Below, in pieces: positions 7,491 through 60,724 of a DNA stretch of 64,000 nucleotides; positions within the stretch are counted from its first letter, which is position 1, and each line of letters starts with the position of its first letter. Source of the DNA: Nicotiana tabacum (Eukaryota; Streptophyta; Magnoliopsida; Solanales; Solanaceae); contig NC_134087.1 of the NCBI RefSeq assembly GCF_000715075.1, positions 105,749,161 through 105,813,160 of the forward strand, read 5' to 3'. The notes below the pieces were generated by a model. The model was not told the origin of the DNA. It saw only the letters and a program-made list of their open reading frames with translations, and ran no database searches. The translations under genes and the position numbers were made by a program.

Positions 7491-7493
7491 TGT

Positions 7494-18705: not shown

Positions 18706-19465
18706 ATTTGTCACGACCCGAATTTCCCACCCTCAGGAGTCGTAATGGTGCCTACTTGTGAAAGCTAGGCAAACAGAGTGTTATAGATTTTATTACACTT
18801 TTTCCTTAACCTTTTAGCAATTTCAAATTAACATGTGATCAACAACAGAATAATAATAATAATAATAATAATAAAAGAAATGCGGAAGATGAAATTTGAT
18901 AATTTAACCAAATACTAGTGCGAAAATCCAAAATACAACTCTACCCAGAACTAGTGTCACAATATCACGGACCATCTACGAATACTACAAACAATGGTCA
19001 GAATAGAAAGATACAAGTCTGTCTCTAAAGTAAATAAAACAAGAATAGAAAAGATAGAAGGAGACGCCAAGGCCTACGGACATCTGCAAGACTACCTTGG
19101 GTCTCTGCTGGACTGAAGGCAGCAACCTCGCTACGCTCCAAAAGCTCCGGTATCGAGATTTGCACACAGTGCAGAGTGTAGTTTCAGCACAACCGACCCC
19201 AAGTGCTGGTAAGTGTCGAGCCTAACCTCGGCGAAGTAGTGACGAGGCTAGGACAAGACTACCAATCGAACCTGTGCAGTTAAAGCATATATGGCAAATA
19301 ATAATAACGGGAACTATAAGTTAAAGATGGAAAGGGGAAACATGCTGCGGGGAATATCAAGTACCAACAGAATCTCAGTAGAAAAGCATAAAGAATATCT
19401 TAAATTTTGCATCAGTAAGAATAAAGAAAACAATAACAAATCAATATCCACTTTTATTATTTATT

Positions 19466-19678
19466 GTTGCAGTGCAACCCGATCCAAATCATATAATACT
19501 ATTGCGGCGTGCAACCCGATCCAAATCATATATAATACTGTTGCGGCATGCAACCCGATCCAAATCATATAACTCTATTGCGACATGCAACCCGACGCCA
19601 CCTGTCCTCCCTTATTATTCCGTGTTGCGGCATGCAACCTGATCCCATAAAATATTGTTGCAGCACGCAACCCGATTT
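19466..19678 (-). repeat. GTTGC-GCAAC minisatellite, 6 copies
   Basis: Same array and copy number as the sister LTR at 11994-12212, with independent point changes, so the array predates insertion of the element. Confidence 0.8.
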
Positions 19679-21048
19679 TAATATACAAATCAACACCAAT
19701 CACAAAAAAATCCCGGCAAAGAAAACAATATCACAAGCAATGACATCCCGGCAAGGGAAACAATATCCTAATAATAACATCCCGGCAAGGGAATCAACTA
19801 CAACCAATCCAGTTTCCACAGTTAATTCACAAAATAGACCTCAACCTGAGCCAATACTTTACAATTGCCAATTACTAAGAATTTCCTCATAAATCTTGTA
19901 CCACAATTACTAACCATCGAGTTAAGACTCACGGGCATGCTTCACACCAACGTATAGGTACTCGTCACCTCACCTATACATCGTACTCGACACTAACACA
20001 TAGCAATTAAGACATAACACTTATTTCCTCAAGCTAAGGTCAGGCCAAACACTTACCTCAACTTCCACGGCCAAACTCAAGCCTCAAGCACCACTTTTCC
20101 TTTAGATTTTGCCTCCAATTTACTTGTATCTAACCCAAATAAATTTAACAACATCAAAAAATGTTAAAGAATTCAACCCCAATGCTAAATTATAGGTTTT
20201 CTATCATTTTCTCCAAAAAGTCAAAAATCAACCCCGGGCCCGCTTGGTCAAAACTCGAGGTTCAGACCAAAATCCGATCACCTATTTGCCCACGAGATCG
20301 AATATGCAATTAGTTTTGAAATCCGACCCCAAAACTAGGTGTAAATTCCAATTATTCAAAAAGCCCTAACACCACCCAAATTCCCAATTTCTACCATGAA
20401 AATTCTGATTTTTGATTAAAGAGTGATGAAAAACGTTGGGTAATTGAAACAGTAGAGTTTAGAATTGATTACTAATACTTTGGGGATTAATTTGTGTGAA
20501 GAAAATCGCCTCTAGGTCTTGGTAGTTCGAAAATATGATAATAATGGGTTCTGCCCATTTTTGATACTGTTTTAAAATACTAGGCAGGCCTTCATCGCGT
20601 TCCCAATAGGCCTGCCGCATTCGCGATGGGCCAGGCCCAAATGGCCTTCGCATTCGCGTTGGACGGCCCGCGTTCAAGGAGCTTTAGCTCCTCAGGCCTT
20701 CGCATTCGAGGTCAAAGGGTCGCATTCGCGTAGAACAAATCGAGCTCCCTCCCCCAGGCCCACTAACCCTATGCGTTCATATGGGCCAGAACGCGTTCAT
20801 AAAGGGTAACCCACCAAAGCTATCACGACCCAAACCGATGGGCCGCGACGGGCACCCGGTACCTTACTCAACAACGTAACGTATCTTTCTTATTACATCA
20901 TCATATACACGTGACATACCTAATAGGCCAACGTGATTATTTATAAACTCAAAACATTGGCCGACAAAGCCGTACAATTTTTCACGTACACGACATATGT
21001 CTACAAGCCTCTAAGAGTACATAAATGTCATAAAGGTCGGGACAGAGT

Positions 21049-27021: not shown

Positions 27022-27766
27022 AAAGAGTTTAAATGAGAGAGGTAAATGAGAATATACTAAATGTTCTCCAGGAAATGTGGAGAATTCTAAAAGACATATA
27101 ATTGGAACACGAGAGATTACGTATTCGTTTTTCTTCGAGAAAATTAAGTGCTATGAATTTAATGTCTCTCCCATTTCTTTGCGCTAAAGAAATCATTTGG
27201 CACTGAAGTTTGTGCATTGAAGGTTTGGCTGTGAGTAGTGATCCAGGCTTGAAACATATGTTGCTTGTAAGGCAAATATTTTTGTGGCCCATTGAAAACG
27301 TAAATGCAAGTGGTGTTTGTTGGGTTTCCGTAAAGCAATGGAATTTTGAGAAATTAATGTATTATATATTGGGAGATGCTAAACGACCACACTGGTGTGA
27401 CCCAAAGTTGGCCACACCATAAAAAAGACATAAATGATCCTCTAACTAATTAGCCTATATTTTTCCCTCCAAAATATAAAATTAAATTTTAAGTCTTGAA
27501 GTATACAAAAATTAAATATTGGGAGATGAAGAGTTTTGTGTATTATATTTGTATTTCCATTGTATTTATGTGTATTTTATGTTTATACAAATTATACGAT
27601 TTAGTATGTATACAAATTATTATATTTTCCTTCTTTCTTAAAAAAAATACGGTATACGATGTATTGTACTTCCTTCATATCAAACCAAGTCAAGTAGACA
27701 CTTTACCCTATCTAAAAAATGGATTCAAACCAAGAAAATTCGGTGGTGCAAGAAAATATGAATCCA
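27022..27766. other. AT-rich spacer
   Basis: Flanking DNA right of the MITE-like element. Nothing codes convincingly, and I cannot assign a repeat family. Confidence 0.45.
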
Positions 27767-28265
27767 TATCTACTTATTATTTATATTTCATAATTAAATT
27801 GCTAATTATATTCCAAATATAACGATTGGTGTCAATTGACTAGTGGAACCATAATAAACGTAATTATATGGTCGTTATCAATATACGCATGACCTTAATG
27901 AATAAAATTATATGTTGGCTACTATACACATATATATAAACGTTCAATGTAACTATATATAAAGCGCAACAATGTAATTAACTAGTGTCAGTATCTACTT
28001 ATTATTTATATTTCATAATTAAATTGCTAATTAAATCCTAAAATATAACGATTGATGTCAATTGATTAATGGAACCATATATGTAATTATGGTCGCTATC
28101 AATATCTACTTATTATATATATAGATGTTAAATGTAACTATATATAAAGCGCAATAATGTAATTAACTAGCATCAATATCTACTTATTATTTATATTTCA
28201 TAATTAAATTGCTAATTATATCCCAAAATATAACGATTGGTGTCAATTGACTAGTGGAACTATAG
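27767..28265. repeat. Local AT-rich tandem repeat, left block
   Basis: Three copies start at about 27767, 27992 and 28177 with 'tatctacttattatttatat' and continue with 'gattggtgtcaattgac' (27825 and 28228) or the variant 'gattgatgtcaattgat', 'tggaacca', 'ggtcg.tatcaatat' and 'taactatatataaagcgcaa'. Periods are about 225 and 185 bp. The same words return right of the retroelement at 39671-40250, so the array was split by that insertion. Confidence 0.75.
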
Positions 28266-30799
28266 TGTAACGACCCGACTGGTCGTTTTGCTTTTTAGAA
28301 CCCTGTTCCCCTAAATAAAACTTTCCGCGCTTGCTTTAACTGATTTACGACCTGCGGGGATGATTGGTTTGGGATTTGGAAGAGTTTAGGTTGGAATAGG
28401 CTCATTTGATTCCTTAAGATTTTCTTAAAAGGTTAAGTTTGACCTTGGTCAACATTTTTAGCAAACAGACCCGAATTCGTGTTTCGATGGTTCCGGAGGG
28501 TCCGCAGAAAAATATGGGACCTGGGCGTATGCCCGGAATCGAATTCCGAGGTCCCTAGCCCGAGTAATGAATTTTTATTAGAAATTATTAAACTGAAATT
28601 CTAAGGATTTAAAGAAACTAAATAATGATTGATCACATTGGTATCGGGCTCGTATGTTGGCTCCGGAGCCCAGTACAGGTCCAATATAATATTTAAGACT
28701 TGCCCGCAAAATTTGGTGTCAATCCGAGTAGTATAAGTACGTTTCGGCACATTAGAAGTGAATTGAAGAACTTGAAGTTCATAGGTTTGATCCAATTGGT
28801 TTTAAGGGGCGATTCTTAGATTTAGCATTGTTTCGGTCGTTCCGAAGGTTTGAGCTGGTCCGTTTCATGATTTCAAACTTGTCGGTATGTTCGGGCAGGG
28901 CCCGGGAGCCCCGAGCGTCAATTGGACGAGGCTTGAGTGAAGTTGGAAATTTTGGGAAGGAGCTGAAGCTCCAGTTATCTGTCATAACCGCACCTGCAGT
29001 TGGTCAGTCGCAGGTGCGAAACCGCAGAAGCGGTCAACCTCTCGCAGATGCAGCCAAGCCAGGCCAGGCCCAAAGCTGCAGAAGCGGAGCTGCAAATGCG
29101 GCTTGCATCTCGCAAATACAGCCCAACAGCTCAGTTGAGATTCCGCAGAAGCAGGCTCCTTTCCGCAGATGCAGTGGGCACAAGTGCAGCCCAGGACCGC
29201 AGATGCGGAAATCACTGAAGCAGTGAGCTTCATTTATTACGGGCTCTAAGACATTTTGGCCATTTTTCACTCACTCATTGGGCGATTTGGAGCTCTTGAG
29301 AGAGAACCTTCACCTAGCATCTTGAGGTAAGTTTACTATTTCTAGTTTAATACTTGAGTTTTGGGTAGATTAACACACTAAAATTAGTGGAAATCATAGG
29401 GTTAAAGCAAAACCTAGGGTTTTGACAAAAGTTAGATTTGACCACGAAAATTGTTATGAAATGAATTAGAAATCATATATTATTGATCCTTGGGTTATGA
29501 AGAACTTTCTTTGAAAATTTTCGGAATTCGGGCACGTGGGCCCGAGGTCGGATTTTAGGAAACTTGTGTTTAAGGGTGGGGAATTGCTTAAATAGCTAGA
29601 ATGTGACCTTGTGAGCTTGTATTGACTAGTTCCTACCTCGTTTATCTAGTTTTGGATCGTTCGGCTCCAAATTGAGAGTTCGGGCTCGTTCTTGGTATTG
29701 GAAATGCACTTTGGAGCGAGGTGAATCTCCTATCTAACCTTGTAAGAGGGAATTGTCCCCATAGGTGATGTAATCTAATAATTTGCCATTAAATGCGGGG
29801 GCTACGTACGCACTAGGTGACGAGATTCCATGCATAACTACTATTATGCTATGTCCGGGTAGTTTAAGACCCAAAGCATGCTTTATGTGGTATTTTTGCA
29901 ACTCTATGTTTAATTTGGATTGTTTAAATCATGGTGATTATGATAAATGAGACAGGAACATGATCTTTCTTGGCTTTCTTTTTTAAAGAGAAGTTGATAA
30001 TTCAGTAAGTAATTGCTCCCCAGTTATATGTTCTTGTTTGCTTGTTGCTATGTTTAATTACATTTGATCGCGTTGCATGGTTGATTCGCGAGCGGGGTAA
30101 TAGATGCATCTATGGTTCGTGTCGTTCGACACTCGGCAGTGCACAATTTACTTTTATGTTGGATCGGGCCGTATAACCTCGGCACTATGTTAGTTCTTGC
30201 TATACACTGCTAATTATTTGTTTTATTCATGCTTAGTATAATTCATCTCTCATATTATTTGACCCTAGTAAGTGTCAAGTCGACTTCTCGTTTCTACTTC
30301 TTCGAGATTAGACGGGATACTTACTGGGTACATATTGTTTATGTACTCATACTACACTTTTGTATTTAATTGTATAGGATTTGAGATAGGTACATCTGGC
30401 TATCAATCTGGTGCGCATCCCTGAGCATATTTCGAGACCTCCATGGTGAGCTGCTCCCTTCCTGTACTGTTCATCAGCTTGATGGAGTCTCTCTTTATTT
30501 ATTTTTGCTGTCTATTCTATTTCGAACAGTAGGATAGAATTATTCTTTTGTATATTCTACTAGATGCCCACAACTTCTGACATCAGGTCTTGGGACACAC
30601 ATTAGTAGACTATTCTTTTGGGAAATGTATAATTATTTTTGGTACATTACTGGTTATTACTTGTTTTAACTTTAACTTAAGAAATTACTGTAATTGTTTT
30701 GGTAAAAGTAAAATGAGAACTTATTCACATTTCCGCGTTGGCTTGCCCGGCAATGGTGTTGGGCGCCATCATGACCTATAATGGAAATGGGTCGTGACA
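28266..30799 (+). repeat. 5' LTR (group II)
   Basis: 2534 bp, aligning with the minus-strand LTR at 7494-10345. Modules: CGCAGATGCGG / ACCGCAGAAGCGGT palindromes (28985-29220), TTGAGGTAAGT (29322-29332), 'taaccttgtaagagggaatt' (29736-29755) and a 'ggatcgggccgtataacctc' module (30160-30180). No GTTGC-GCAAC array. Confidence 0.85.
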
Positions 30800-30802
30800 A
30801 CA

Positions 30803-30820
30803 TGGTATCCGAGCACTAGG
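30803..30820 (+). other. Primer-binding site (tRNA-iMet)
   Basis: TGGTATCCGAGCACTAGG three bases after the 5' LTR, one change from the usual TGGTATCAGAGC. Confidence 0.85.
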
Positions 30821-32327
30821 TTCACGTAGGTCTCAAAAGTCATGGGCAAACCTAATAGAGTCTTGCGGGTCGGTACAGAGACATCTGTATTTATCTTTGA
30901 GAGGCTACAAGGTATTAGGAAAACTACTCTTTATTCATTTCCTATCGTACAATGGTTGGTCTACTAAATTTTCCTCTTCTATTCTCTTACAGATGGTGAG
31001 GACACGCACGACTGATGTTCCAGACCTGGGAGGAGCTGCTCCCACCATTGCTAGAGGCCGGGGGAGGGTACTGGCCTGAGGCAGGGGACGAGGGCGTCCC
31101 AGTAGCACCACTAGCAGACCCTGCAGGAGATCCTATCATTGAAGAGCAGGGCGAGGTGCCCGCAGCTGAACCTACCCTGGCAGACTTTATGACAACATCG
31201 GGTTTCCAGGAAGTCATGGGCCGTATGCTGCGGTTCATGGACACCATGACTTAGGCTGGTTTATTTCCAGCGGATCCAGCTACATCACAGGTAGGAGGGG
31301 GAGCGCAGATCCGTACTACTCAGGCGTCACACAGCTGCAGTGTATCAGACTCCGAGTGCACTACTCGCGGATGGGGCTCAGCCAGTTGCTGCAGTGGTTC
31401 CCGAGCCCAAACCAGTTGCGGATGGTGACCCGCAGAAGCTATTGGATAGATGGACTAGACTTCACCCTCCTGTCTTTGGGGGTGAGCTTTATGAGGATGC
31501 CCATGATATCATTGATAGGTGCAGGGACAGACTGCACAACATGAGGATATTGGAGTCGCATGGGGTAGACTTCACTACTTTTCCGCTGGAGGGTAGGGCC
31601 CGTAGTTGGTGGCAGTCTTATGTTCTTGGCAGGCCAACAGGTTCTCCTCCCCTCACTTGGGGTCAGTTCACACAGTTTTTCTTGTATAGGTATATTCCAC
31701 CCTCTGAGAGGGAAGAGGTGCAGTATCAGTTTGAGCATCTTAAGCAAGGTCAGATGTTCATGACCGACTATGAGGCGAGATTTTCTGAGTTGTCTCGCCA
31801 TGCTCTCATGATACTTCCTACGGATGCAGAGAGAGTGCAGAGATTTGTTTCGGGGTTGCACCCCGGTATTTGAGCTAGCATGGCCCGAGAGGTAGATATG
31901 GGTACTGAGTATCAGCTAGTGGTGGAGATTGCTCGCAGGATTGAGGGTTATCGCCAGAAGGGTAGAGAGCAGTTTCAGCAGGACAAGAGGGCCCTATTTT
32001 TTATAGATTTCAGAGGTGCCCTAGCTAAGGGTAGGGGGCACCCAGGAAGGGTTCAGCCCGACAAGCCCCCGCATTCAGCACTACCACCACCTCCCCTAGG
32101 TGCTCTAGTAAGACCTTATTTCAGTGCGATGTCGGAGAGTTCTTACCATCCACCAGCTATTCAGGGTTCCTCCAGCGGGTATTCTGGTCATCAGGGTTCT
32201 TCCAGTGCTTACTTTAGTGCCATGCCAAAGAGTTCATATTGCCCACCAGCCATTCAGGGTTCTTCTAGTAGATATTCGGGTCAGCAGGCTTAGACTTCAG
32301 GGCAATAGGCTATGGTGCCGAGGGGTT

Positions 32328-32369
32328 GCTACAAGTGTGGAGATCCGGGTCACATGAAGAGGACCTGCC
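32328..32369 (+). other. gag CCHC zinc knuckle coding segment
   Basis: C-x2-C-x4-H-x4-C pattern, CYKCGDPGHMKRTC, the nucleic-acid binding knuckle of retroelement gag. Two stop codons (32291 and about 32306) now separate it from the capsid domain. Confidence 0.85.
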
Positions 32370-35300
32370 CTAGGCTTCGGGGCAAGGTAGTAGAGCAGGG
32401 TCAGCAGTCTATGATTTCAGCACCGGTTGCTCAGCCTCCTAGAGGCGGGTGACAGACGGGTAAAGGCCATCCTAGAGGTGGAGGCCAGGCAGGGAGAGGT
32501 CAACCAACTATTGCTCAGTCAGATGGAGGCCAGCCAGCCGGTGCTCCATCCAGATTCTATGCCCTTCTGGATAGGCCAGATGCATTGGCCTCAGATGCTG
32601 TCATCACAAGTATTATTTCCCCCTGTGGTAGAGATGCTTTGGTATTATTCGATCCAGTGTCCACCTATTCATATGTATCATCTCTGTTTGCTCGTTTCCT
32701 GGTTATTCCTCCTGCGCCTTTAGGCACTCATGTTCATGTGTCCACTCTTGTGGGCGATCCTGTGGTTGTGGATCAGATCTACCGGTCCTGTGTGGTCACA
32801 TTCTGTGGTTTCGAGACTAGAGCAGATCACCTATTGCTCGATATGATCGACTTTGAGATCATCCTAGGCATGGATTGGTTATCTCTATATCACGCTGTCA
32901 TAGATTGCCATGCCAAGACTGTTACATTAGCAATGCCAGGGTTGCCAAGGTTGGAGTGGAAGTGTTTCACAGTTAATACATCTAGCCGGGTTATCTCTTT
33001 CCTGAAGGCTCAACATATGGTCGAGAAGGGGTGTTTGGCATATTTGGCTTATGTTCGGGACACCACCGCAGAGTCTCTGACGATTGATTCAGTTCCAATA
33101 GTACAAGAGTTCGCCGATGTGTTTCCTTCTGATCTTCCTAGCATGCCACCGGATTGTGATATTGATTTCTATATTGATTTGGCTCCAGGCATCGAACATA
33201 TATCTATCCCACCGTATCGTATGGCTCCTAAAGAGTTGAAGGAGTTGAAGGAGCAGCTTGAGGAGTTGTTAGCAAAGGGGTTTGTTATACCCAGTGTATC
33301 ACCTTGGGGTGCACCAGTTGTTAGCAAAGGGGTTTGATCTCCGTTCAAGTTATCACCAGTAGAAGATCAGGGACTCGGATATTCTTAAGATGACTTTCAG
33401 GACCGATATGGTCATTATGAGTTCTTGGTGATGTCTTTTGGGCTGACCAATACCCCAGCAACATTCATGCATTTGATGAACAGCGTGTTCCGGCCCTATC
33501 TTGACTCGTTTATCATAGTCTTCATTGATGACATTCTATTGTATTCGCATAGTCAGGAGGAGCACGCGGAGCATTTGAGAGTTGTATTGCAGAGATTGAG
33601 GGAGGATAAGCTTTATGAAAAATTCTCCAAGTGTGAGTTTTGGCTCAGTTTAGTGGCTTTCTTGGGGAACGTGGTGTCCAGCGAGGGTATTCATGTTGAT
33701 CCGAAGAAGATTGAGGCAGTTCAGAGTTGGCCCTAACCGTCCTAAGCCATAGAAATTCGCAGCTTTCTTGGTTTGGCGGGTTATTATTGCCTGCTTGTTC
33801 AGGGATTCTCATCTATCGCATCGCCCTTGACCAAGTTGACTCAGAAGGGTGCTTCATTTGTATGGTCGAATGAGTGTGAGGAGAGCTTTCAGAAGCTCAA
33901 GACAGCCTTGACCACAACTCCAGTGTTTGTTTTACCATCAGCTTCAGGTTCATATACCGTGTATTGTGATACTTCGAGAGTTGGTATTGGGTGTGTATTG
34001 ATGCAGGAGGGTAGAGTTATTGCTTATGCTTCTCGTCAGTTGAATCCCCATGAGAAGTACTACCCTGTTCATGATTTGGAGTTGGCTGCCATTGTCCACG
34101 TGTTGAAGATTTGGAGGCATTATTTGTATGGTGTGTCTTGTAAGGTGTTTACTGATCATCGTAGCCTCCAACACTTGTTCAAACAGAAGGATTTCAATTT
34201 GAGGCAGCGGAAATGGTTGGAGTTGCTAAAGGATTATGATATTACTATTTTGTACCATCTGGGGAAGGCCAATGTGGTGGCCGATGCTTTGAGCCGGAAG
34301 GCGGTGAGTATGGGAAGTTTGGCATATATTCCAGTTGGGGAGAGACCTATTGCAGTTGATGTTCAGGCCTTGGCCAATCGGTTCGTGAGGTTAGACATTT
34401 TGGAGCCCAGTCGGGTGTTGGCTTGTGTGATTTCTCCGTCTTCCTTATATGATTGCATCAGAGAGCGCCAGTATGATGATCCCCATTTGCTTGTCCTTAA
34501 GGACAGAGTCAAGCATGATGATGCTAGAGATGTGACTATTGGTGATGATGGGGTGTTGAGGATGTAGGGCCGGATATGTGTGCCCAATGTAGATGGGCTT
34601 CGGGAGTTGATTCTGGAAGAGGCCCATAGCTCGCGGTATTCCATTCATCTGGGTGTCGCGAAGATGTATCAGGATCTGAGTCAGCATTATTGGTGGAGGA
34701 GAATGAAGAAAGACATTGTGGGATTTGTGGTTCGGTGTCTCAATTGTCAGCAGGTGAAATATGAGCATCAGAGACCGGGTGGCTTGCTTCAACGGATGTA
34801 TATTCCAGAGTGGAAGTGGGAGCAGATCACCATGGACTTTGTAGTTGGGCTCCCACAGACTTTGAAGAAGTTCGATATTATTTGGGTGATTGTGGATCGG
34901 CTGACCAAATCCGCGCACTTCATTCCTGTGTACTACCTATTCTTCAGAGCGGTTAGTAGAGAGTTCTATATCCGGGAGATTGTTCGCTTGCATGGTGTCC
35001 TAGTTTCCATCATTTCAGATAGGGGCACTCAGTTTACTTCACAATTTTGGAGGTCTATGCAGCGAGAGTTAGGTACTCAGGTTGAGTTAAGCACAACTTT
35101 TCACCCTCAAACGGATGGGCAGTCCGAGCGCACTATTCAGATATTGGAGGACATGTTGCGTGCTTGTGTCATTAATTTTGGAGGGTCATGGGATCAGTTT
35201 CTACCGCTTGCAGAGTTTGGTTATAACAACAACTACCGGTTGAGTATTCAGATGGCTCCGTATAAGGCTTTGTATGGGAGGCGGTGTAGATCTCCAGTTG

Positions 35301-35914
35301 GCTAGTTTGGGCCGGGTGAGGCTAGGCTATTGGGGACAGACTTGGTGCAGGATGCTTTAGACAAGGTAAAGGTGATTCAGGAGAGGCTTCGTACAGCACA
35401 GTCGAGACAAAAAAGTTATGCTGACAGGAAGGTCTGGGATGTGTCCTACATGGTTGGTGAGAAGGTTCTGTTGAAGGTTTCACCGATGAAGGGTGTTATG
35501 AAATTTGGGAAGAAAGGAAAATTGAGTCCTCGGTTCATTGGGCCTTTTAAGGTGCTTCGGTGGATTGGGGAGGTGGCTTATGAGCTTGCTTTTCCACCCA
35601 GCTTGTCGAGTGTGCTTCCGGTATTTCATGTCTCTATGCTCCGAAAGTATATTGGAGACCTGTCTCATGTTCTGGATTTCAGCTCAGTTCAGTTAGATGA
35701 TGATTTGACTTATGATGTGGAGCCAGTGGCTATTTTGGAGTGTCAGGTTCGAAAGTTGAGACCAAAGGATATAGCTTCAGTGAAAGTGCAGCAGAGAGGT
35801 CGGCTCGTGGAGGAGGCTACCTGGGAGACCAAGTGGTAGATGTGGAGCAGATATCCTCACCTATTTGAGGCTTCAAGTATGTTTCTTGACTCGTTCAAGG
35901 ACGAATGTTTCTTT

Positions 35915-35927
35915 AAGAGGGGGAGGA
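35915..35927 (+). other. Polypurine tract
   Basis: AAGAGGGGGAGGA directly before the 3' LTR, the primer for plus-strand DNA synthesis in LTR elements. Confidence 0.8.
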
Positions 35928-35929
35928 TG

Positions 35930-37833
35930 TGATGACCCGACCAGTCGTCTCATGATTTATCGCTCTATTTTCCCCATTTCAGCTTCTTATTGCTTTGTTT
36001 ATTGATTCTATATGTGATCGTGTTGGTTGGCTCGGGTTCGAAAAGGTTTCGAGAAGGTTTGAGACACTTAGTCTCTTTTGAGGAAACTTAAGTTGGAAAA
36101 GTCAACCGGATGTTGACTTATGTGTTAGAGGGCTTGGATGAGAGTTCCGATGGTTCGGATAGCTTCAGGAAGTGATTTGGGACTTAGGAGCATGATCGGA
36201 ATGTGTTTTGGAGGTCAGGAGTAAATTTAGGCTTGAATTGGCGAAATTGGATTTTTGGCATTTTTCGGTTGATAGGTGAGATTTTGATATAGGGGTCGGA
36301 ATGGAATTTCGGGAGTTGCAGTAGTTCCGTTGGGTCATTTGGGATGAGTGTGCAAAATTTCAGGCCATGCAGACATGGTTTGGTATACTTTTTGATCAAA
36401 AGCGTAATTCGAAAGATTTTGGAAACTTAGGCTTGAGTTCGATGTGTTTTGGTTGATTCAATGTTGTTTGAGGTGTTTTGAAGATTGGTACAGGTTTGAG
36501 TAGTGGTATATGATGTGTTTGTGCCTTTGGTTAAGTTCCCGGGGGCCTCGGGGTGTTTTCAGATGGTTGGCGTATAGTTGGAATTTTTGGTGAAGCTGCA
36601 GAATTTTCTGCTTCTGCTGTTTCTGCACCTGCGAATTGGGGACTACATGTGCGATGCCACAAATGCGAGGAAAGGACCGCAGAAGCGGTCAAGGATACGA
36701 AGGGCAGAGGCATTAGATGCGGTGTTCTGAGCGCACTTGCGATGGCGCAAGTGCGGTTATTTGGCTGCAGATGCGGAGATTGGTCGAGTAAGTGGAAACC
36801 GCAAATGCGGTGCTTGGTACCGCAGAAGCGGTTGCACAAGTGCGAGATCTGGACCGCAGGTGCGAAAAGCCTGGGCCAAAATGTATAAATTATTTCCTTC
36901 GCGATTTTTGAGCTATTCCACTATTTCTATGTCGATTATTTGAGCTTTTTGGGCGATTTGAGGAAGGATTTCATTGAGGTAAGGATTTTGGACCTAAAAC
37001 TCGTTTCTATGATATTATTTCATGGATTAAGGCTGTAATTAATGGAATTAAGGGCTTGAGATTAAGAGACCGTAAAATGGGAATTTTAGGGGTCATTTGG
37101 ACTCCGAGTTTAGTGTTCTTGGTATGTATGAACTCATGGGAGGATAAAGATTCCATTGATGTGATTTTTATCGAGTTTCGAGACGTGGGCCCAGGGGTTG
37201 GGTTTTGGCCAATTTCGGAATTTTTGGTAGAATTTGATTTATTTCGCATAGGCTTCGTCCCTTTAGCCTATTCTAATGTTATGATTCTGATTTTGGGTAG
37301 ATTCGGCACGAGTTGAGGCCGAGGCGAGAGGCAAAGGCATCATAGAGTTGTATTTTCATCCGGTTTGAAGTAAGTAACCATTGTAAATCTGGAATTGAGG
37401 GTACAAACCTCAGTATTTCGAATTGTTTTGATAAATGAGGTGCACACATGCTAGGTGACAAGCGTGTGGGCATGCACTGGTAGAGATTGTGACTTAGTCT
37501 GTCCCGTAGCAACTATTAAGCCGCGTATTAGAATTGAAATCTTATAAGATTCCGTATTTTAGACATTTACACTGTATTATTGGCTGTATGCCATGTTTGG
37601 GGCCTTGTGCCGACCGTTGAGACCCTTAGGGGCATTTTACTGTTCTTCCTCACTCTATATGTTTGAAAGCATATCCTCAGTTATGTTTTTCCCTGTTTAA
37701 TGTTTTAAACTGGTTTTATCACTCTACTTCTTAAGTGTGAGGACTGTTTGGACTAAGTTTCCTTGAATTCTCTGTTATGCCCGAGTGACTGTGAGGTTAA
37801 TGACTGAGAGAGGTTGAGGATCTAATGGTGAGG

Positions 37834-37885
<52 letters not shown>

Positions 37886-39670
37886 GGATCGGGCTACACG
37901 CCACAACGATACTTATATGGATCGGGTTGCACGCCACAACGATATATATATTGGATCGGGTTGCGCGCTGCAGCGATATGATGTTTGGGCTGTAGGAGCC
38001 CCTCCGGAGTCTGTACACCCCCAGTGAGCATAGTCGAGTATTAACTATGGATTGGGCCAATTTCGGAATTTTTGGTAGAATTTGATTTATTTCGCATAGG
38101 CTTCGTCCCTTTAGCCTATTCTAATGTTATGATTATGATTTTGGGTAGATTCGGCACGAGTTGAGGCCGAGGCGAGAGGCAAAGGCATCGTAGAGTTGTA
38201 TTTTCATCCGGTTTGAAGTAAGTAACCATTGTAAATCTGGAATTGAGGGTACAAACCTCTGTATTTCGAATTGTTTTGATAAATGAGGTGCACACATGCT
38301 AGGTGACAAGCGTGTGGGCGTGCACTGGTAGAGATTGTGACTTAGTCTGTCCCGTAGCAACTATTAAGCCGCGTATTAGAATTGAAATCTTATAAGATTC
38401 CATATTTTAGACATTTACACTGTATTATTGGCTGTATGCCATGTTTGGGGCCTTGTGCCGACCGTTGAGACCCTTAGGGGCATTTTACTGTTCTTCCTCA
38501 CTCTATATGTTTGAAAGCATATCCTCAGTTATGTTTTCCCTGTTTAATGTTTTAAACTGGTTTTATCACTCTACTTCTTAAGTGTGAGGACTGTTTGGAC
38601 TGAGTTTCCTTGAATTCTCTGTTATGCCCGAGTGACTGTGAGGTTAATGACTGAGAGAGGTTGAGGATCTAATGGTGAGGATTATATATATATATTGGAT
38701 CGGGCTACACGCCACAACGATACTTATATGGATCGGGTTGCACGCCACAACGATATATATATTGGATCGGGTTGCGCGCTGCAGCGATATGACGTTTGGG
38801 CTGTAGGAGCCCCTCCGGAGTCTGTACACCCCCAGTGAGCGTAGTCGAGTATAAACTATGGATTGGGCTGAAGGCGCAACAATTACTATAATTATTACTA
38901 TTATGAGATATTATTGAGCCTGAGTGCTGAAAGTGAGTACTGAGTGACGAGAGCTGAGTCACGAGTGACTGAGAGGCTGCCCGAGAGGCCATATTATGAG
39001 TGATACCTTGCCCGAGGGGCCCACTTATGATATTTTCACTGATTTTACTCTTCTTTTAAAATAAGTCTCTGTTGAAAATTTTCTAAGTAAATGATTTAAG
39101 GTATTCTAATTGAAACTGAAGTTTTATGACGAAACTAGTTTTTAAATTGTGGAGTTTGATCTGTTATCCTATTGTTTACTCCTTTATATCATTTTAACTG
39201 CTCGTCACTACTTTCAGACCTTATTTACTTTAGTTACTTACTGAGTTGGCGTACTCACGTTATTCCCCGCACCTTGTGTGCAGATCCAGGTGCCCGAGCG
39301 GCAGAGTGAGGGTCCTCAGCATTGTCAGAGTTTGCCGGAGACTTCAAGGTAGCCGTATGACGTCCGCAGCCTTGCTTTCCTCCTTCCTATCTTGTTCTTT
39401 TCTGCATTTTAGACTTGTGATGAGTTAGACAGTCGGTTTGTATATTTAGAGGCTCTAGACTCGTGACACGAGACGTTTGGGCTTTGTTGGTTAATGTTTA
39501 TTGATTTATGCATATTTTTAGCTTTTTATACATTTCTTATGAAAAATTGAGATTTAAACTCGTGTTAGAAAATGGTTTTATAAAAGAAATTCGTTGTGAT
39601 TAAATGTTTGGGTTGGCTTGCCTAGTAATGTGATAGGCACCGTCAGGACCGGGTATTTGGGGTCGTGACA
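35930..39670 (+). repeat. 3' LTR (group I) with internal 848-bp tandem duplication
   Basis: Begins TGATGACCCGACCAG and ends GGTCGTGACA, 3741 bp. Modules: ACCGCAGAAGCGGT palindromes (36610-36875), TTGAGGTAAGG (36974-36984) and three GTTGC-GCAAC copies (37883-37975, again at 38697-38790). Without the duplication it would be about 2.9 kb, near the size of the other group I LTR at 18709. Confidence 0.85.
37207..38868 (+). repeat. Tandem duplication, period 848 bp, inside the 3' LTR
   Basis: Unit 1 is 37207-38054 and unit 2 is 38055 to about 38868. They differ at only a handful of bases plus a shorter (TA) tract in unit 2 (37836-37881 against 38682-38695). The join reads 'ggattgggcc' and the end of unit 2 reads 'ggattgggct', a short shared word at the breakpoint. 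Confidence 0.9.
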
Positions 39671-40918
<1,248 letters not shown>

Positions 40919-40923: not shown

Positions 40924-43900
40924 CGTACCGACCCGACTGGTTGTTTTGAGCAATTTCGCCCGGTTTGGCAATTTGAGGTCACGAGTAGCTTCATATAATG
41001 TGTATCGACTTGCGTGCGTAGTCTGGGCGTGAAACCGGAAAGCTTTTATGTGAAAATATGAAAAAATAGTAATTTTTAGAGTTAAAATTTGGGTTTTAGT
41101 TGACTTTGGTCAATATTTTTGGTAAACAGACCCAGATCTGTGTTTCGACGATCCCGAGAGGTCCGCGGTAAAATATGGGACTTGGGCGTATGCTCGGAAT
41201 TGAATTATGAGGTCCCTATCATTAGAAAACAATTTTTGAAGAAAACTCTTGTGCTGGTTTTTGAAGGAAATAAAGAAATGAATTAATGTTTGAACTCATT
41301 GGTATCAGGCCCGTATTTTGGTTCCGGAGATCGGTACAAGTTTGTTATGATATTTAACTCCTATCTGTAAAATTTGGTGAAAACCGAAATTGATTTGACG
41401 TGATTTGGACGTCCAGTTGAAAAGTTAGAAAATCATGAGTTTTGAGGTTAAATTCATAGTTTTTATATTATTTTGATGATTTGATTGCACGAGCAAGTCC
41501 GTATGATATTTTTAGACTTACGTGCATGTTTCTTTTCGAGCCCTGAGGGTTTGGGTGACTTTCAGATAGGTTTAGGCTATGTTGCGCTTGTTTTTGGAAG
41601 CTTCATCGTCGTTTCGTCAAGCAAAAATATTACCACATTGAGCAAATGAGATCAAAATTCAGTTTTATTTGAACCACTAGATCCGTACCAGAATTATGGA
41701 GTCATAGGAAAAAGAATTATCAAATTTGGACATCGTATGAGGAAGTTATGCTCATTTTCGTGTCAGCAAAAATTGCTAATTCTAGTGTGGTCGCAAATGC
41801 TAACTTTTTATTGCATTTGCGGTGCCCAGTTCGCAAATGCGAGATTTTTATCGCAAATGCAAGATCTTAGTCGCAAATGCGACTTCCGCCAGCCCTGCAT
41901 TGTTCGTAATTGCGAGGTGTTCGCAAATGCGAACCCTAGGTCGCAAATGCGACATCTGAGGCCTGTTAAGTGAGGTTTTTGACGAGAATTTCACCCATTT
42001 TTCCATTTTCTCAAACCCTAAACCTCCATGGGCGATTTTTCAAGGACCCAAACTTCTCCAAATTATTGGGTAAATGTCTCTAATCAATTTTCAACTATAT
42101 TTCGTGATTATATCTTAGATTTAACATCAAATTCATGAGAATCTAAAGGAAAATTTGGGAAAAATTGTGAAATCTTTCAAAAATATAAAATAATGATTTG
42201 AATGACCAAATGACGTCGGAATTAGATAATTTTTATATCGGTGAACTCGTAGTGGAATGGGTGTTCTATTTTTGTAAATTTTGTCGGGTTCAGAGGTGCG
42301 GGCCCGGGGAGTTGACTTTTGTTAACTTTTTTCAAATTGTATAAGAATCATAGTTTTGTCAATTGAAATTGTTTTCTCTTGCATTGTTTGATGAATTCAA
42401 GTCATTTTTGGCTAGATTGAGCCGAGCATTGATGAATTGGTAAAGAAAAAAATAAATTGAGTATTGAATTGGCCGGATTGAGGTAAGTATCTTGCCTAAC
42501 CTTGTGTGGAGGACTTCCCCTTAGGAATTGAGTCTTCTATGCTAATTGTAGTCCTTGGATGCGAGGTGATGAGTGTGTGCTCGGACTTATTTATGGGAGA
42601 TTTTCCTCTAGGGTTCTTAGGTCCTTATGTGGAAAGTACCCCGTTATGATTGAGTTTCCTAGTTGCTTAAATTGCCTCTATGTGCTCCATATGACGTTGT
42701 TAGCTTTCCTCTAATTCTTACGTGTTACATGGACCCTTAATTGCCTTCCTTATCGTTTTGATACTTCTTGATTGTGTGTTCCTCTATGACTTCGTGCAAA
42801 TAGGTTACATGTACAATTGTTGTGGTTACCGGTGTAGTTATTACGTGCGTATTATGTCTTGTTGATTAGTTGAGGTTTCATTGTGAAGTTAATTGTTGGT
42901 ACAAGTTTGGTTATAGCTAATTCCCTTGCCGGGACATATTTAATTCTTACTGTTGGTTCCCTTGCCGGGACGTGTTGATTCTTGTTGTTGACTCCCTTGT
43001 CGAGATATTGTTGTTTCCTTATTATTCCCTTGCCGGGATTCTTTTGTGATTGATGTTGATTTGTATATGGGATCGGGTTGCATGCCGCAACAATATTATA
43101 TGATATCGGGTTTCACGCCGCAACAATATTATATGATTTGGATCGGGTTGCGTGCCGCAACAATACTATATGGGATCGGGTTGCACACCGCAATAATATT
43201 ATATGGGATCGGGTTGCACGCCATAACAATATTATATGATTTTGATCGAGTTGCACGCCGCAACAATATTATATGATTTGGATCGGGTTGCATGCCGCAA
43301 CATCACTATATAATTTGGATCGGGTTGCACGCCGCAACAGTACTATATGATTGGGATCGGGTTGCACGCCGCAACAAGAAAGAATAAAAGTGAATATTGA
43401 TTCTTATGGTGAGAACGAGAGTAAAAGCACGAAGGGTGATGTCATGCACTTTTTGCTGCTGCGTTTATTTGTTGTTATATTTTCAAATGTTTAAACTGTT
43501 TAATTCCTTTATTGTTGTGATCCTTTGTGTTAGAACCCACAATATTTTCAATACCTCACCGTATTTATATATATTTATTTATATGTTTATATACACACAC
43601 ACACGTTCCATTACTTCAAACTTCAATAATTGTTACATCTTTAATTCAATTAGTTTCTCAATTATATCCCCTTAAACCGTCTGAGGTTGTATTTTTCTTA
43701 AAAAGGAATTTCTACTAAGTTTTAAGTTATTAACTCTCATGTTAAAGGCAATAATCCATTCGATGTTGTATTTTAAATTAAAAGGGGTACCTTCTTTACT
43801 CAAAGGATTTCCAAATAAACAACTTCATCTTTTCTCGCTGGCTTTCCTAATTAGCTTAGAAATTGTAATTTTACTTATATTAGGTAAATGGGACTTCTTG

Positions 43901-44748
43901 GACATATTGAGTGCATGGTACAGACGTAATGTATTGTATAGCATGTGGATTTTGTTGTTAAAAGTGAAATGAAAAATGAAATATGGGGGAACAAGGTGCC
44001 ATGTGTGTTGAAGGTTCGGAAGTTGAGATTAGGATATGAGAAGTCGAGGGTTGAGATGGTCGGGATTGTGTACTAGACATGATGTTATTGATTTAGTTGG
44101 CATTGCCTTCTTTATTTGGATACATTCTTACTTGTCTCTGTTCCTGTTATGTCAGTATTGATTTACTTGGTTATCATTCGTTACTACCCGTGTTCTCCCT
44201 TTATTGCTCCTACTTTTTTTATTTTGATTTCTCTCCGCTATTGGTATTACCACGTCATCTTTCTCTCAATATTTTACTATCATATCATGTTCATTTCATT
44301 TGACCAGTAGGTGTCTTAACTGTTCCTCGTCACTACCCCACCGAGGTTAGTCTTGATACTTACTGGGCACCACCGTGGTGTGCTCATAGTACTCTTCTGT
44401 ACATTTTTGTGTATAGATCCAGGTATTTGATCGGTAGTAGCTGTGCGGGTCATTTCGATGGAGACTCAAGGTAAACCCGGTACAGCGTTCGCAGGCCTCG
44501 GAGTCACCTTCATTTGTACTTAATTCCATTTGTTCCTTTTGTTTTGTAGTAGTGATGTATTTATTTTATATAATTACTCTTAGAAAGGCTTGTGACTTGT
44601 ACCACCGATTTTGGAAATTGTAATTTGTTCAGAATAATTTAATTTAAAGTTAGTAAGTATCCATGTTATTACCGAAAATGTTAGGCTTACCTAGTTTAGA
44701 GACTAGGTGCCATCACGACTCCTTTGGAGGGATTTTGGGGTCGTGACA
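40924..44748 (+). repeat. 5' LTR of the LARD-like element (group I)
   Basis: Modules in order: GTCGCAAATGCGAC palindromes (41790-41955), TTGAGGTAAGT (42478-42488), TCCCTTGCCGGGA units (42921-43039), GTTGC-GCAAC array (43070-43377). Ends GGTCGTGACA. Confidence 0.87.
43070..43377 (+). repeat. GTTGC-GCAAC minisatellite, 9 copies
   Basis: Nine units of 'gatcgggttgcacgccgcaa' plus 'caatattatatgat..', about 33-37 bp each, with mostly intact 5-bp arms. The sister LTR has nine matching units at 49585-49892. Confidence 0.92.
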
Positions 44749-47429
44749 AGTTGATATTAGAGCTCTAGGTTCATGGGTGCTACAAGTCATAAGCAGGTTT
44801 AGTAGAGTCTTGCGGATCGGTACAGAAATGTCTGTACTTATATTCGAGAGGCTACATAACTATTAGAAAATTCCCCTTCTTTCATTCCTTATCGTGCGAT
44901 ATTGATTCAGATCAAAGTATATAACTTATGTTCCCTTACATCCACTAGAGTATAATATTACGCTCTCAGCGTTCGCCATGCGCCAGTGGTTTGTGATGCT
45001 ACCTTTTAGGTTACGAAGGAGTCAGGGATGCTTAGACATTGCCTCGACATGTTGTCCAGGCTGAAGATACAGAGGCATTAAGAGACTATTCAGTCGTTCA
45101 TATAGAGGTGCAGCGGTTTCCGACATCTGATTGATAAATGCGAGCTTGGTAAGGTTTAATTGGTTGCCTAGTCATCGCGATTGTGGCAAGGCCACGAAGT
45201 GGGTGTTGATTGGGAATAGTTGGTGATATTGGAGTATCTTGTGATTTTTGTTGTATGAACTTTGAAGGTTAGTTTTACGGATCATCAGACGTTGTTTTCT
45301 ATGGCTTTGCGCCAAGTGGAGGAGTCCAATAGCGGTATTCAGATTGCAGAGTTAGATTTATATCAGATTTGGCCTAAGGTATATGTATATGTGGTATTGG
45401 TAGGTTTCCAGAATTTGTATATGACTAAGGTCTGAGATCTTGCATGGGACGATGTTGGGACTTTGACTAGGATTATTGAATATCTACTATCCGAAGAAAT
45501 GGGTCAGCTTTGAGGTATTGGGTCAGCATAGCGATGAAGTAATTGGTCCTTTGAATAGGAAATCTCTACTGGCATTTATGGAAGCACTCTTGTATTGGAC
45601 GGTTTGTGTGACTCGGTCAAGTTGGGGAGGTGCAGTCCTGATGGCTTAGTCGTGCGGGCGGATCTCAGAAGGGTCTCGATGGTTCGACAAAGGCTTGAGT
45701 TGGCTGTCTACTATGGGCGTAAGGAATATGTGGTACATTGTGACTTTCTCCTGAATATGTATCAAAAATTAATAGAGTGTTGACCTTGTTGGCTATCATA
45801 TGTGAAGGGTGTGCATTTTTGGAAGGGACCTTGAGTTTTGGTTTGCGGGTGCATGGCTAGTAGCATGGTGATTACTGGGTTTTGAGGCTTTCGGGGTTCA
45901 TGTTTTGTTACACGACCAAAAATCCTATATGGATGCTTCAGCAGAATAATAGGGTGTTAGTGATATATCAGCCATTTGATTTGCGTAGTTGAGTTGGGTA
46001 TGGAAATTTCGGTATTCCTGAGGTTTGGGGCTAGATTCCCTCATGAATGGACTATTTCCTGTTTGCGGATCTTGAAGATATGTTGAGAATGCAATAATTA
46101 ATAGCATGTAAGTTGTTGTGGATCTTTTTAAAGCATACTTACCTATTTGGAAATAATCAGGATTTGGGTTGGTGGCTATTTGAAAGCTCAATGAGAATAT
46201 GTATCTTGTATCAGATCAAGTTTGAGGCTCCTGTGAGATTGTCATTATGGTTATGTTATCGGGCAGAATGGATATTATTTGTGACCCTAGCCTATGTTAT
46301 GTGCTACTCTTTTATGCTGTGTTAGGCGGTGAGGTTGTATGATTATTGCCCACACATGTTGTAATTTTGTTCAGGCCTTATGGCGATGCGGGCAAGATAA
46401 CCCTCGTGATGTTGATTTGTTCATTGCACCTTAGTTGTTCTTTTTTCTTTTGTGTTCTAGCACTTATATTCGTTATTTCCAGAGTTTTACTTGTGCACTC
46501 TATTGTGCCTGATATCAATATTTATGTGATCAGTGGACCCGAGCATTTTGTCTTGATGAGTATTTGGGAGCGGGCTGCGTGCCGCAACGGATGTTATGTG
46601 GGGTACCCTTTCATTGTGTTTATTTGGTGTCATGTTTTCCCTCTGTGGGACAATTTGATGAAAGACTATACTTTTGTTGTCACACATGTTGTACTTGTTA
46701 GATAATTCTTATAATTGGCTTTCCCTTTTTTGTGCTGCATAATTTAGTTATTGTTGGTTTGGTGTACGAACTGTGTAGTGTGAGAATCTGTGTGGTTCCG
46801 TGGTGAGTTGATTTTGTACTGGCTAAGATGAGCTTCTTAGACATGAGATTTGTACTATGGTATTGAGGGTGAGGAGTGATTGGATGTATGTGGTTGTTTT
46901 TGCTAAGAGTTGGGTAATGGCCCTTGGCGGGCGAAAGAGTTTCTTGACTTGTTGACTTCATGAGCAGCTATGAATATCCACATGTTTCTTTATCAAGGGC
47001 AGTGTTGTGGGGGTCCGGAACAAGGTTATATTCAATGTGAGGTGTATTGCTGGCATTTAGGATGTTATTTGAACAGCTATGATGGTCAAAGGTTATTGCT
47101 TTGGGCATTTGAGTTGTGTGGAACAACATGTGATTGTATACTGGATTGGAATTTTGGCTCGATTCAGCTTGTTTAGGTTCATGCAGTGTGATGATGTGGG
47201 ATTCAGATCCTATGATGAATTTCAGACGGTGAGGTTTGGGTTTTGTCCTAAGGATATGGACTAAAGATGAGATGAGACCATCAGTTAAGTTGCATTGTCA
47301 GTCCTACATAGGTTTAGGTGACGGGGAATTGCCCCAAGTGTGTGTATGAGGAGCTTATGCAGTGGTTCGATGGCTTTGGAACGACTCCGGGCACATTCGA
47401 GGACGAACGTATGTTTAAGTGGATGAGAA
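44749..47429 (+). other. Interior of the LARD-like element, non-coding
   Basis: Begins with a decayed primer site ('ttgatattagagctctaggt', 44751-44770; the usual form is TGGTATCAGAGCTCTAGG), then a leader shared with coding elements ('gagtcttgcggatcggtaca', 44803-44822). The rest gives only short ORFs without retroelement motifs. One GTTGC-GCAAC-like unit lies at 46570-46590. 'aaggacgaacgt' style sequence and a weakened polypurine tract (about 47415-47429) precede the 3' LTR. Confidence 0.75.
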
Positions 47430-50400
47430 TGTAACGACCCGACTGGTCGTTTTGAGCAATTTCGTCTGGTTTGGTAGTTTTAGGTCACGAGTAGCTTCAT
47501 ATTATGTTTATCGACTTGCGTGCGTAATCCGGACGTGAAAACGGAAAGCTTTTATGTGAAAATATAAAAAAGTAATTTTTAGAGTTAAAATTTGGTTTTT
47601 AGTTGACTTTGGTCAACATTTTTGGTAAATGGACTCGGGTCTGTGTTCCGACGATCTCGGGAGGTTCGAATAAAATTTGGGACTTGGGCATATGCCCAGA
47701 ATTGAATTCCGAGGTCCCTAGCATTAGAAAATAATTTTTGAAGAAAATTATTGTGCTGGTTTTTAAAGGAAATAAAGAAATAAATTAATGTTTGAACTCG
47801 TTGGTATCAGACCCGTATTTTGATTCCGCGGCTCGGTACAAGTTTGTTATGATATTTAAGTCCTATCTGTAAAATTTGGTGAAAACGGGAATTGATTTGA
47901 CGTGATTTGGACGTCCGGTTGAAAAGTTAAAAAATCATGAGTTTTGAGGTTAAATTCATAGTTTTTGATACTATTTTGATGATTTTATTGCACGAGCAAG
48001 TCCGTATGATATTTTTAGACATGCGTGCATATTTTTTTTGGAGCCCCGAGGGCTTGGGTGAGTTTCGGATAGGTTTAGGCTATGTTGCGCTTCCAAAAAT
48101 AAGCGCAACATAGCCCAATTTAGCCTATGTTATGTGTACTCTTTAACATCGTCGTTTTTTCAAGCAAAAATAATATCATATTGAGCGAATGATATCCAAA
48201 TTTAGTTTTGTTTGAACCATTAGATCCGTATCAAAATTACAGAGTCATAGGAAAAAGAATCATCAAATTTGGACATCGTATGAGGAAGTTATGCTCATTT
48301 TCGTATCAAAAAAATTGTTGGTTCTGGTGTGGTCGCAAATGCTAACTTTTATCGCATTTGCGATGCCCAATTCGCAAATGCAAGATTTTTATCGCAAATG
48401 CGACTTCTGCCAGCCCTGCGTTGTTCGTAATTGCAAGGGGTTCGCAAATGCAAACCCTGAGTTGCAAATGCGACATCTGAGGCCTGTTAAGTGAGGTTTT
48501 TGACGAGATTTTCACTCATTTTTCAATTTTCTCAAACCCTAAACCTCCATGGGCGATTTTCCAAGGATCCAAACTTCTCCAAATCATTGGGCAAGTGTCT
48601 CTAATCAATTTCCAACTATATTTTGTGATTATATCCTAGATTTAACATCAAATTCTTGAGAATCTAAAGGAAAATTTGGGAAATATTGTGAAATCTTTCA
48701 AAAATATAAAATGATGATTTGAAAGACCAAATGGTATCGGAATTAGATAATTTTTATATCGGTGAACTCGTAGTGGAATGGGTGTTCTATTTTTGTAAAT
48801 TTTGTCGGGTTCCGAGGTGCGGGCCTGGGGAGTTGATTTTTGTTGACTTTTTGCAAATTGTATAAGAATCATAGTTTTGTCAATTGAAATTGTTTTCTCT
48901 TGCATTATTTGATATATTCAAGTTATTTTTGGCTAGATTCAGCCGAGCATTTATAATTGGTATAGGAAAAGCTAAATTGAGTATTGAATTGGCCGGATTG
49001 AGGTAAGTATCTTGCCTAACCTTGTGTGGGGGACTTCCCCATAGGAATTGAGTCTTCTATGCTAATTGTAGTCCCTGCATTCGAGGTGACGAGTGTGTGC
49101 TTGGACTTATTTGTGTGAAACTTGCCTTTAGGGTTCTTAGGTCCTTATGTGGAAAATACCCCGTTATGATTGGGTTTCCTAGTTTCTTAAATTGCCTCTA
49201 TATGCTCCATATGACGTTGTTAGCTTTTCTCTAATTGTTACGTGTTACATGGACCCTTAATTGCCTTCCTTATCATTTTGATACTTCTTGATTGTGAGTT
49301 CCTCTATGACTTTGTACAAATAGGTTACATGTACAATTGTTGTGGTTACCGGTATAGTTATTACGTACTTATTATGTCTTGTTGTTTAGTTGAGGTTTCA
49401 TTGTGAAGTTAATTGTTGGTACAAGTTTGGTTATAGTTGATTCCCTTGCTGGGCATATTTAATTCTTACTGTTGGTTCCCTTGCCAGGACGTGTTGATTC
49501 TTATTGTTGACTCCCTTGCCGGCATATTGTTGTTTCCTTATTATTCCCTTATCGAGATTCTTTTGTGATTGGTGTTGATTGTATGGGATAGGGTTGCACG
49601 CCGCAACAATATTATATGGTATCGGGTTGCACGCCGCAACAATATTATATGATTTGGATCAGATTGGGCGCCGCAATAATATTATATGGGATCGAGTTGC
49701 ACGCCGCAACAATATTATATGAGATTGGGTTGCACGCCGTAACAATATTATATGATTTTGATCGAGTTGCACGCCACAATAATATTATATGATTTGGATC
49801 GGGTTGCACGCCGCAACATCACTATATGATTTGGATCGGGTTGCACGCTGCAACAATACTATATGATTGGGATCGGGTTGCACGCCGCAACAAGAAAGAA
49901 CAAAAGTGAATATTGATTCTTATGGTGAGAACGAGAGTAAAAACATGAAGGGTGATGCCGTGCACTTTCTGCTGCTGTGTTTATTTGTTGTTATCAATTC
50001 AAATGTTTAAACTGTTTAATTCCTTTATTGATGTAATCCTTTGCTTTGATCCCTTGTGTTGGAACCTACAATATTTTCAATACTTTGCCGTATTTATATA
50101 TATACATTCAAATACTTCAAACTTTAATAATTGTTACATCTTTAATTCAATTAGTTTCTCAATTATATCCCCTTAAACCGTCTGAGATTGTATTTTACTT
50201 AAAAAGGAATTTCTACTAAGTTTTAAGTCATTAACTCTCATGGTAAAGGTAATAATCCATTCAATATTGTATTTTAAATTAAAAGGGGTGCCTTCTTTAC
50301 TCAATGGGTATCCAAATAAAGAACTTCATCTTTTCTCACTAGCTTTCCTAATTAGCTTAGAAATTGTAATTTTACTTATATTAGGTAAATGGGACTTCTT

Positions 50401-51266
50401 GGACATACTGAGTGCATTGTACAGATTTTATGTATTGTATAGCCTGTGGATTTTGTTGTTAAAAGTGAAATGGAAAATGAAATGTGGGGGCACACGATGC
50501 CATGTGTGCTGATAGTTCGGAAGTTGAGATTATGATATGAGAAATCGAGGGTTTAGATGGTCGGGATTGTGTACTAGATATAATGTGATTGATTTAGTTG
50601 GCATTGCCTTCTTTATTTGGATACATTCTTACTTGTCTTTGTACCTGTTATGTCAGTGTTGATTTACTTGGTTATCTGATTTACTTTGTTATCGTTTGTT
50701 ACTACCCGTGTTCTCCCTTTATTGCTCCTACTGTTTGTATTTTGATTTCTCTCCGTTGTTGGTATTACCACATCATCTTTGTCTCGATATTTTAGTATCA
50801 TATCCTGTTCATTTCATTTGACCAATAGGTGTCTTGACTGTTCCTCGTCACTACCCTACCAAGGTTAGTCTTGATACTTACTGGGCACCGCCATGGTGTG
50901 CTCATACTACACTTCTGTATATTTTTGTGTACAGATCCAGGTATTTGATCGGTAGTAGCTGTGCGGGTCGTTGCGGTGGAGACTCAAGGTAAACCTGCTA
51001 CAACGTTCGCAGGCCTCGGAGTCACCTTCATTTGTACTTAATTCCATTTGTTCCTTTTGTTTTGGAGCAGTGATGTATTTATTTTGTATAACTACTCTTA
51101 GAAAGACTTGTGACTTGTACCACCGGTTTTGGGAATTGTAACTTGTTCAAAGTAATTTAATTTAAAGTTAGTAAATATCCATGTTATTACAGAAAATGAT
51201 AGGCTTACCTAATTTAGAGACTATGTGCCATCACGACTCCTTTAGAGGGATTTTTGGGTCGTGACA
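47430..51266 (+). repeat. 3' LTR of the LARD-like element (group I)
   Basis: Starts TGTAACGACCCGACTGG and ends GGTCGTGACA. Same modules as its partner: palindromes 48333-48475, TTGAGGTAAGT 48998-49008, TCCCTTGCCGGGA units about 49441-49559, nine minisatellite copies 49585-49892. It carries a private inverted insertion at 48078-48115. Confidence 0.87.
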
Positions 51267-56425: not shown

Positions 56426-56438
56426 TTCTCTCCCACTT
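56426..56438 (-). other. Polypurine tract
   Basis: Minus strand AAGTGGGAGAGAA immediately before the 3' LTR. Confidence 0.75.
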
Positions 56439-60721: not shown

Positions 60722-60724
60722 TGT

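Follow-up and report, generated by a model that had tools for sequence, protein, structure and literature searches.

The question raised by element B (28266-39670, from TG at 28266 to CA at 39670) is how one retrotransposon with its parts in order came to carry two LTRs that do not match. Element B is a Ty3/Gypsy-type plant retrotransposon, and the window around it (the whole 64,000-nucleotide stretch of Nicotiana tabacum DNA analysed) is plant repeat DNA. The features of B and of its flanks were:

27762..28265, plus strand: left flank, AT-rich array, unit type 1
28261..28265, plus strand: left flank 5-mer tatag
28266..30799, plus strand: 5' LTR, 2534 bp, "group II" type, TG...CA, from termini and block matches
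30803..30814, plus strand: primer binding site TGGTATCCGAGC, PBS-like, after the 5' LTR with spacer ACA
31295..31873, plus strand: gag ORF piece, Retrotrans_gag PF03732, E 5.8e-16
32453..33337, plus strand: protease and start of RT, RVP_2 PF08284, E 2e-23; RT start from the translation
33316..33336, plus strand: 21-bp filler in RT, at a deletion
33746..34567, plus strand: RNase H ORF piece, PF17917 and PF17919
34568..35305, plus strand: integrase ORF piece, PF17921; rve PF00665 below the curated cut-off
35306..35839, plus strand: SH3/Tf2-1-like C-terminal integrase domain, PF24626
35915..35927, plus strand: polypurine tract AAGAGGGGGAGGA, directly before the 3' LTR
35928..39670, plus strand: 3' LTR, 3743 bp, of a subfamily unlike that of the 5' LTR
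37201..38868, plus strand: tandem duplication in the 3' LTR, copies 37201-38057 and 38049-38868
39671..39675, plus strand: right flank 5-mer tatac, 4/5 match to tatag
39711..40416, plus strand: right flank, AT-rich array, unit type 2, with a core of ~100 bp in common with type 1

Pieces of gag, protease, RT, RNase H and integrase occurred in that order on one strand of B; gag, protease, RNase H and integrase were supported by Pfam, and RT was recognised by reading the translation alone. No RT Pfam family was reported for the submitted pieces, which included 32453-33337 (33338-33745 lay outside the submission). In-frame stops interrupted the frame, so that the copy looks dead, and B is an old, broken element. 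The tandem duplication (~0.82 kb) accounted for part of the length of the 3' LTR, and its two copies differed by 12 substitutions in 814 sites. The first-pass annotation had both LTRs adjoining a proper primer site and polypurine tract, and this held: PBS-like TGGTATCCGAGC, which we take to be of the initiator-tRNA-Met type, followed the first LTR, and the purine tract AAGAGGGGGAGGA preceded the second. Of the 3' LTR limits given there (35930-39670), the end stood and the start moved two bases earlier, to 35928.

The 5' LTR began TGTAACGACCC and ended GGTCGTGACA, and the 3' LTR began TGTGATGACCC and also ended GGTCGTGACA. Between the two, blastn returned no match of at least 60 bp at E 1e-3, and a forced global alignment gave 53% substitutions. 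The LTR pairs of the other elements in the window all matched (3/3), with 8.4% (element A, compared just as far as its LTRs match), 8.1% (element C) and 7.2% (element D) substitutions; the mismatch proposed for B was thus borne out. Forced alignments of other unlike LTRs in the window gave 49-52%, and that of the 5' LTR of B with the LTR of a group II element, G2 (6130-10345; its minus-strand LTR at 7494-10345), gave 36%. The LTRs of B had termini in common, the LTR starts carried a conserved stretch, and the local score of the 5' against the 3' LTR was 46, compared with 27-30 for five first-order random sequences. The two appear to be distant homologues at most. With that local score and the common termini, "different subfamilies of one clade" would be a fair phrase for them, and their assignment to different subfamilies is supported by the alignments.

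As the first-pass annotation had it, the 5' LTR of B aligned with the LTR at 7494-10345, in five blocks at 71-85% (blastn). The match of B to G2 was unbroken from 30225 to 32169, through the LTR end, the PBS and gag (65-84% per 200-bp bin). In the gag half, the DNA of B was 76% identical to G2 and 57.5% to A, and its gag protein was 69% identical to that of G2 (144 aa) and 50% to that of A (110 aa). The spacer between LTR and PBS was ACA in B, G2 and D, AAT in A and AGT in C. With this spacer and the unbroken match, the 5' LTR, PBS and gag of B behave as one block, which follows G2. The 5' LTR also matched the D LTRs in blocks at 70-85%, and the C LTRs at its positions 174-453 (73-75%) and 1968-2112 (69-70%; all blastn); because a "group II" LTR also matches those of C, the division into groups I and II is not a clean one.

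The 3' LTR had been assigned to group I from its GTTGC-type repeats. The repeats were present, and the assignment did not stand. Matches to A and C (blastn) were confined to the GGATCGGGTTGCACGCC minisatellite (~100 bp, 74-84%), which also occurs in the interior of D, and the remaining matches were blocks of ~100 bp to the D LTRs (70-71%). A match that consists of the minisatellite alone, found inside D as well, points to a third LTR type rather than to group I, and the 3' LTR of B is effectively such a type. No other element in the window carried it.

From its LTR termini and domain order, B presumably belongs to the Del/Tekay chromovirus clade, in a Solanaceae host. It resembles Del/Tekay-type Solanaceae elements in domain order, in its long LTRs and in a polypurine tract directly before the LTR, and a PBS of the initiator-tRNA-Met type is a further trait in common; it differs from them in its mismatched LTRs, RT deletion and in-frame stops. 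The search with the B integrase scored 7994 proteins, and its relatives were taken from the best 120 of these. Among the matches listed, most that carried an organism name were from plants, Solanum verrucosum and Nicotiana attenuata among them; two stood under bacterial names (Robertmurraya and a Snodgrassella MAG) and are probably contamination. This list gives no link to gag or to the LTRs. Pfam did not report the chromodomain PF00385 at 35306-35839, where PF24626 was found; PF00385 was precomputed for one relative, P0013, which matched 82% of the integrase query at 79% identity. The scan of viral contigs found no relatives of B, and a pattern scan of genome contigs for the PPT-LTR junction gave 0 matches. 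A protein profile run over genome contigs returned 3 short loci (L001-L003), in bacterial records, which were left unused.

Both LTRs of an element are built at reverse transcription from a single U3 and a single U5, and the mismatched pair of B consequently points to a chromosomal event after insertion. B is probably, though far from certainly, a composite of two insertions in one repeat array, the reading that the first-pass annotation also leaned towards; break repair or recombination of chromosomal DNA would later have fused them. The two would be related retrotransposons of chromovirus type that belonged to different LTR subfamilies and landed, both in one orientation, in a single AT-rich array. 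A later chromosomal deletion or recombination would have run from the coding region of one element into that of the other and removed everything between the two points, so that the first element would survive as 5' LTR, primer site and gag, and the second, now attached to it, as polypurine tract and 3' LTR. We infer the two insertions, the order of events and the position of the join, which would lie downstream of about 32170 and before the 3' LTR begins. The LTRs differ, the group II-like gag is linked to the 5' LTR, the pieces from gag to integrase are in order, and array DNA flanks B on both sides, with a different unit type on each. Fusion of two insertions would explain why the LTRs are mismatched, why the layout is intact and why the array changes across B; the ACA spacer, in common with G2 and D and unlike those of A and C, also favours it. 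Against it, homologous recombination at only ~70% likeness is expected to be rare.

The flanks gave evidence in both directions. Both were AT-rich array DNA, as the first-pass annotation had stated, but they were not of the same unit type. Repeats were 79-96% alike in the left array and 86-95% in the right, and left and right had just a core of ~100 bp in common (74-83%). CAATTG landmarks fell at 27833, 28059 and 28244 on the left and at 39717, 39860, 40026 and 40168 on the right, and were spaced at 142-226 bp within either array. If the flanks are joined, 28244 and 39717 come to lie ~63 bp apart, so that the unit register breaks at B. In an empty-site comparison, both sides were array DNA and differed in unit type and register. 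The register break would fit two insertions in different units with the DNA between them lost, but the argument is soft: the first 40 bases of the right flank matched neither unit type clearly (92/500 shuffles reached the score for type 2 and 14/500 that for type 1), and repeat arrays can be irregular. The weak resemblance of these bases to type 1 would fit one continuous site.

The outer 5-mers tatag and tatac nearly matched, as had been noted earlier (4/5), and count against fusion. Between the two flanks of B, 5-mers match at 4/5 or better in 4.5% of cases by chance and exactly in 0.6%. Neighbouring elements carried exact 5-bp duplications (CTTGT in C, GACAT in D). The rule given in the cited passages of PMC4668562 allows one mismatch in a TSD, and tatag/tatac would count as a TSD under it. 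This near-TSD speaks mildly for a single insertion.

The stretch 33317-33336 had been named as a candidate switch point in affinity, and no switch was demonstrated there. B had 18 bp at 33315-33334 where A had 149 bp, a net loss of ~131 bp of RT, and the 21-bp filler at 33316-33336 was an exact copy of 33264-33284, 52 bp upstream. By its sequence, the site is a deletion with templated filler, that is, a repair scar. Passages of PMC5217109 report break-repair junctions with templated insertions in Arabidopsis and tobacco, which the filler in B resembles. Immediately left of the scar B was 69% identical to A (last full 150-bp bin), and immediately right of it 71% (first 200-bp bin); over full bins identity ranged from 63 to 69% on the left and from 65 to 80% on the right. 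The binned identities thus showed no step in affinity to A at the scar, which counts against fusion, and the scar was rejected as evidence that the lineage changes there. No pol match to B was seen in the group II copy, whose match went no further than gag (B 32169). Observed/expected CpG was 0.44 to the left of the scar and 0.55 to the right; four coding stretches ranged from 0.44 to 0.56, all below five LTRs (0.86-1.03). CpG depletion, taken as a proxy of age, showed no clear step across the scar in B. Two elements may have been joined at the scar, or it may reflect an unrelated later deletion and repair.

The composite could also be one of assembly, with the contig joining two different elements through their coding regions. 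This is unlikely, although it deserves some weight. Assemblers can fail at junctions that fall within a repeat family, and passages of PMC7251063 offer wrongly assembled different families as an explanation of odd ages in tomato and potato. However, the available relatives reach only ~73% identity to B in coding DNA, which makes them too distant for an ordinary collapse, and B has array DNA of related type on either side.

Overwriting of one LTR of a single insertion by that of another subfamily, through gene conversion or break repair, is rather improbable as well. The 4/5 match of the flanking 5-mers would agree with it, as would the fact that no lineage switch was found inside the coding region of B, and the conserved stretch at the LTR starts could serve as an entry point. 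But the tract would be 2.5-3.7 kb long, of very different sequence and with clean outer ends, whereas the converted regions described for plant LTRs in the cited part of PMC7251063 mostly span 100-1000 bp; nor would overwriting explain why the array type changes between the flanks.

The first-pass annotation was right that the LTRs are of different subfamilies, but the recombinant arising at reverse transcription that it had also offered, here taken as formed from two RNAs packaged together and inserted in that form, is very improbable: strand transfer would give hybrid LTRs that match one another, and those of B differ at 53%. In its favour are the 4/5 TSD match at B and, in passages of PMC4079200, proliferating recombinants between subfamilies of grass centromeric elements, many with intact TSDs, for which template switching is one proposed route. 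It is more doubtful still that the form with mismatched LTRs was itself a replicating or directly integrated unit, in which cDNA ends of two subfamilies were joined before integration and tatag/tatac were duplicated, so that two LTR types could sit on one insertion. That one family has merely diverged in its LTRs since insertion is scarcely credible and was rejected: common termini and a local score of 46 (27-30 in five random draws) speak for it, but the forced alignment counts against ordinary divergence (53% substitutions compared with 7.2-8.4% in neighbouring pairs), and an element that old should have lost the protein domains that are still recognisable in B.

Fusion of two insertions has known counterparts. 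Devos et al. in 2002 and Ma et al. in 2004 are said to have attributed intact elements without TSDs to unequal recombination between elements. In pear, 578 of 7,247 elements were intact without a TSD and were suggested to be products of such recombination, and 7 intact Tekay elements without TSDs stood beside 20 with them (PMC4668562, cited passages). These TSD-less elements resemble B in their LTR-interior-LTR layout, in the loss of the DNA between two insertions and in having LTRs that are not sisters. They differ from it in that the partners described in those passages were of the same family, whereas the LTRs of B are clearly of different subfamilies and its 5-mers match at 4/5. The centromeric CR recombinants of grasses are similar to B in that subfamilies of one chromovirus clade were exchanged; according to the cited passages of PMC4079200, they proliferate, many have intact TSDs and their LTR pairs are similar enough for the insertions to be dated. 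The LTRs of B differ from one another, unlike those of the CR recombinants, which points to an event in chromosomal DNA. Among the entries listed by word-match searches of an open-access library, none described a single element with LTRs so unlike one another.

B most likely belongs to a known sort of genome rubble, the scar of a fusion between elements. If tatag/tatac were a real TSD, B would challenge the rule that both LTRs come from one template. LTR-based dating and family classification fail on composites of this kind, which preserve a record of diverged elements exchanging sequence or fusing; B is a clear case, with LTRs too different for the difference to be confused with age.

The reverse transcriptase (RT) region of B, the Ty3/Gypsy-type retroelement with mismatched LTRs, carried a deletion where the first-pass annotation had placed a candidate switch of lineage (near 33317-33336).

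33264-33336: RT deletion with filler in B, net loss of about 131 bp

The 21-bp filler was a copy of sequence 52 bp upstream, and on its sequence the deletion with its copied filler is a templated-insertion repair scar.

Plant-type integrase sequence, with 58-63% identity to B, was also found at three loci (L001, L002 and L003) on short contigs of bacterial genome records (an Acidobacteriota MAG, Labilibacter sediminis and Streptomyces clavifer), where it is probably contamination. Two of the listed relatives of the B integrase (P0057 and P0082) likewise stood under bacterial names.

Three other LTR elements of the window, A, C and D, had matching LTR pairs, the A pair being compared over its matching part. 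Element A was irregular too when read by eye (13350-13620 and 20790-20860). By eye, its 5' LTR started abruptly at 20821, adjoining sequence like another LTR end (GGGTCGTGATA), and on its 3' side no PPT was visible and integrase sequence ran into the LTR body.

40924-51266: C, LTRs 3.8 kb, interior 2.7 kb, exact TSD CTTGT
53552-63591: D, LTRs 2.9 kb, interior 4.3 kb, exact TSD GACAT

Neither C nor D matched any of five B protein pieces (tblastn, E 1e-5), and both look non-autonomous.

37201-38868: tandem duplication within the B 3' LTR, unit about 0.82 kb

The two copies aligned over 814 sites, of which 12 (1.5%) carried substitutions; at equal rates, the duplication would have arisen after A, C and D had inserted.

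11991-12374, 19462-19845, 37875-37979, 38686-38790, 43064-43377, 49578-49893: minisatellite GGATCGGGTTGCACGCCGCAAC

The group I label of the B 3' LTR had rested on this minisatellite. Because it was common to the LTRs of otherwise unlike elements and to the D interior, it is, as judged from its distribution, no clean subfamily marker.
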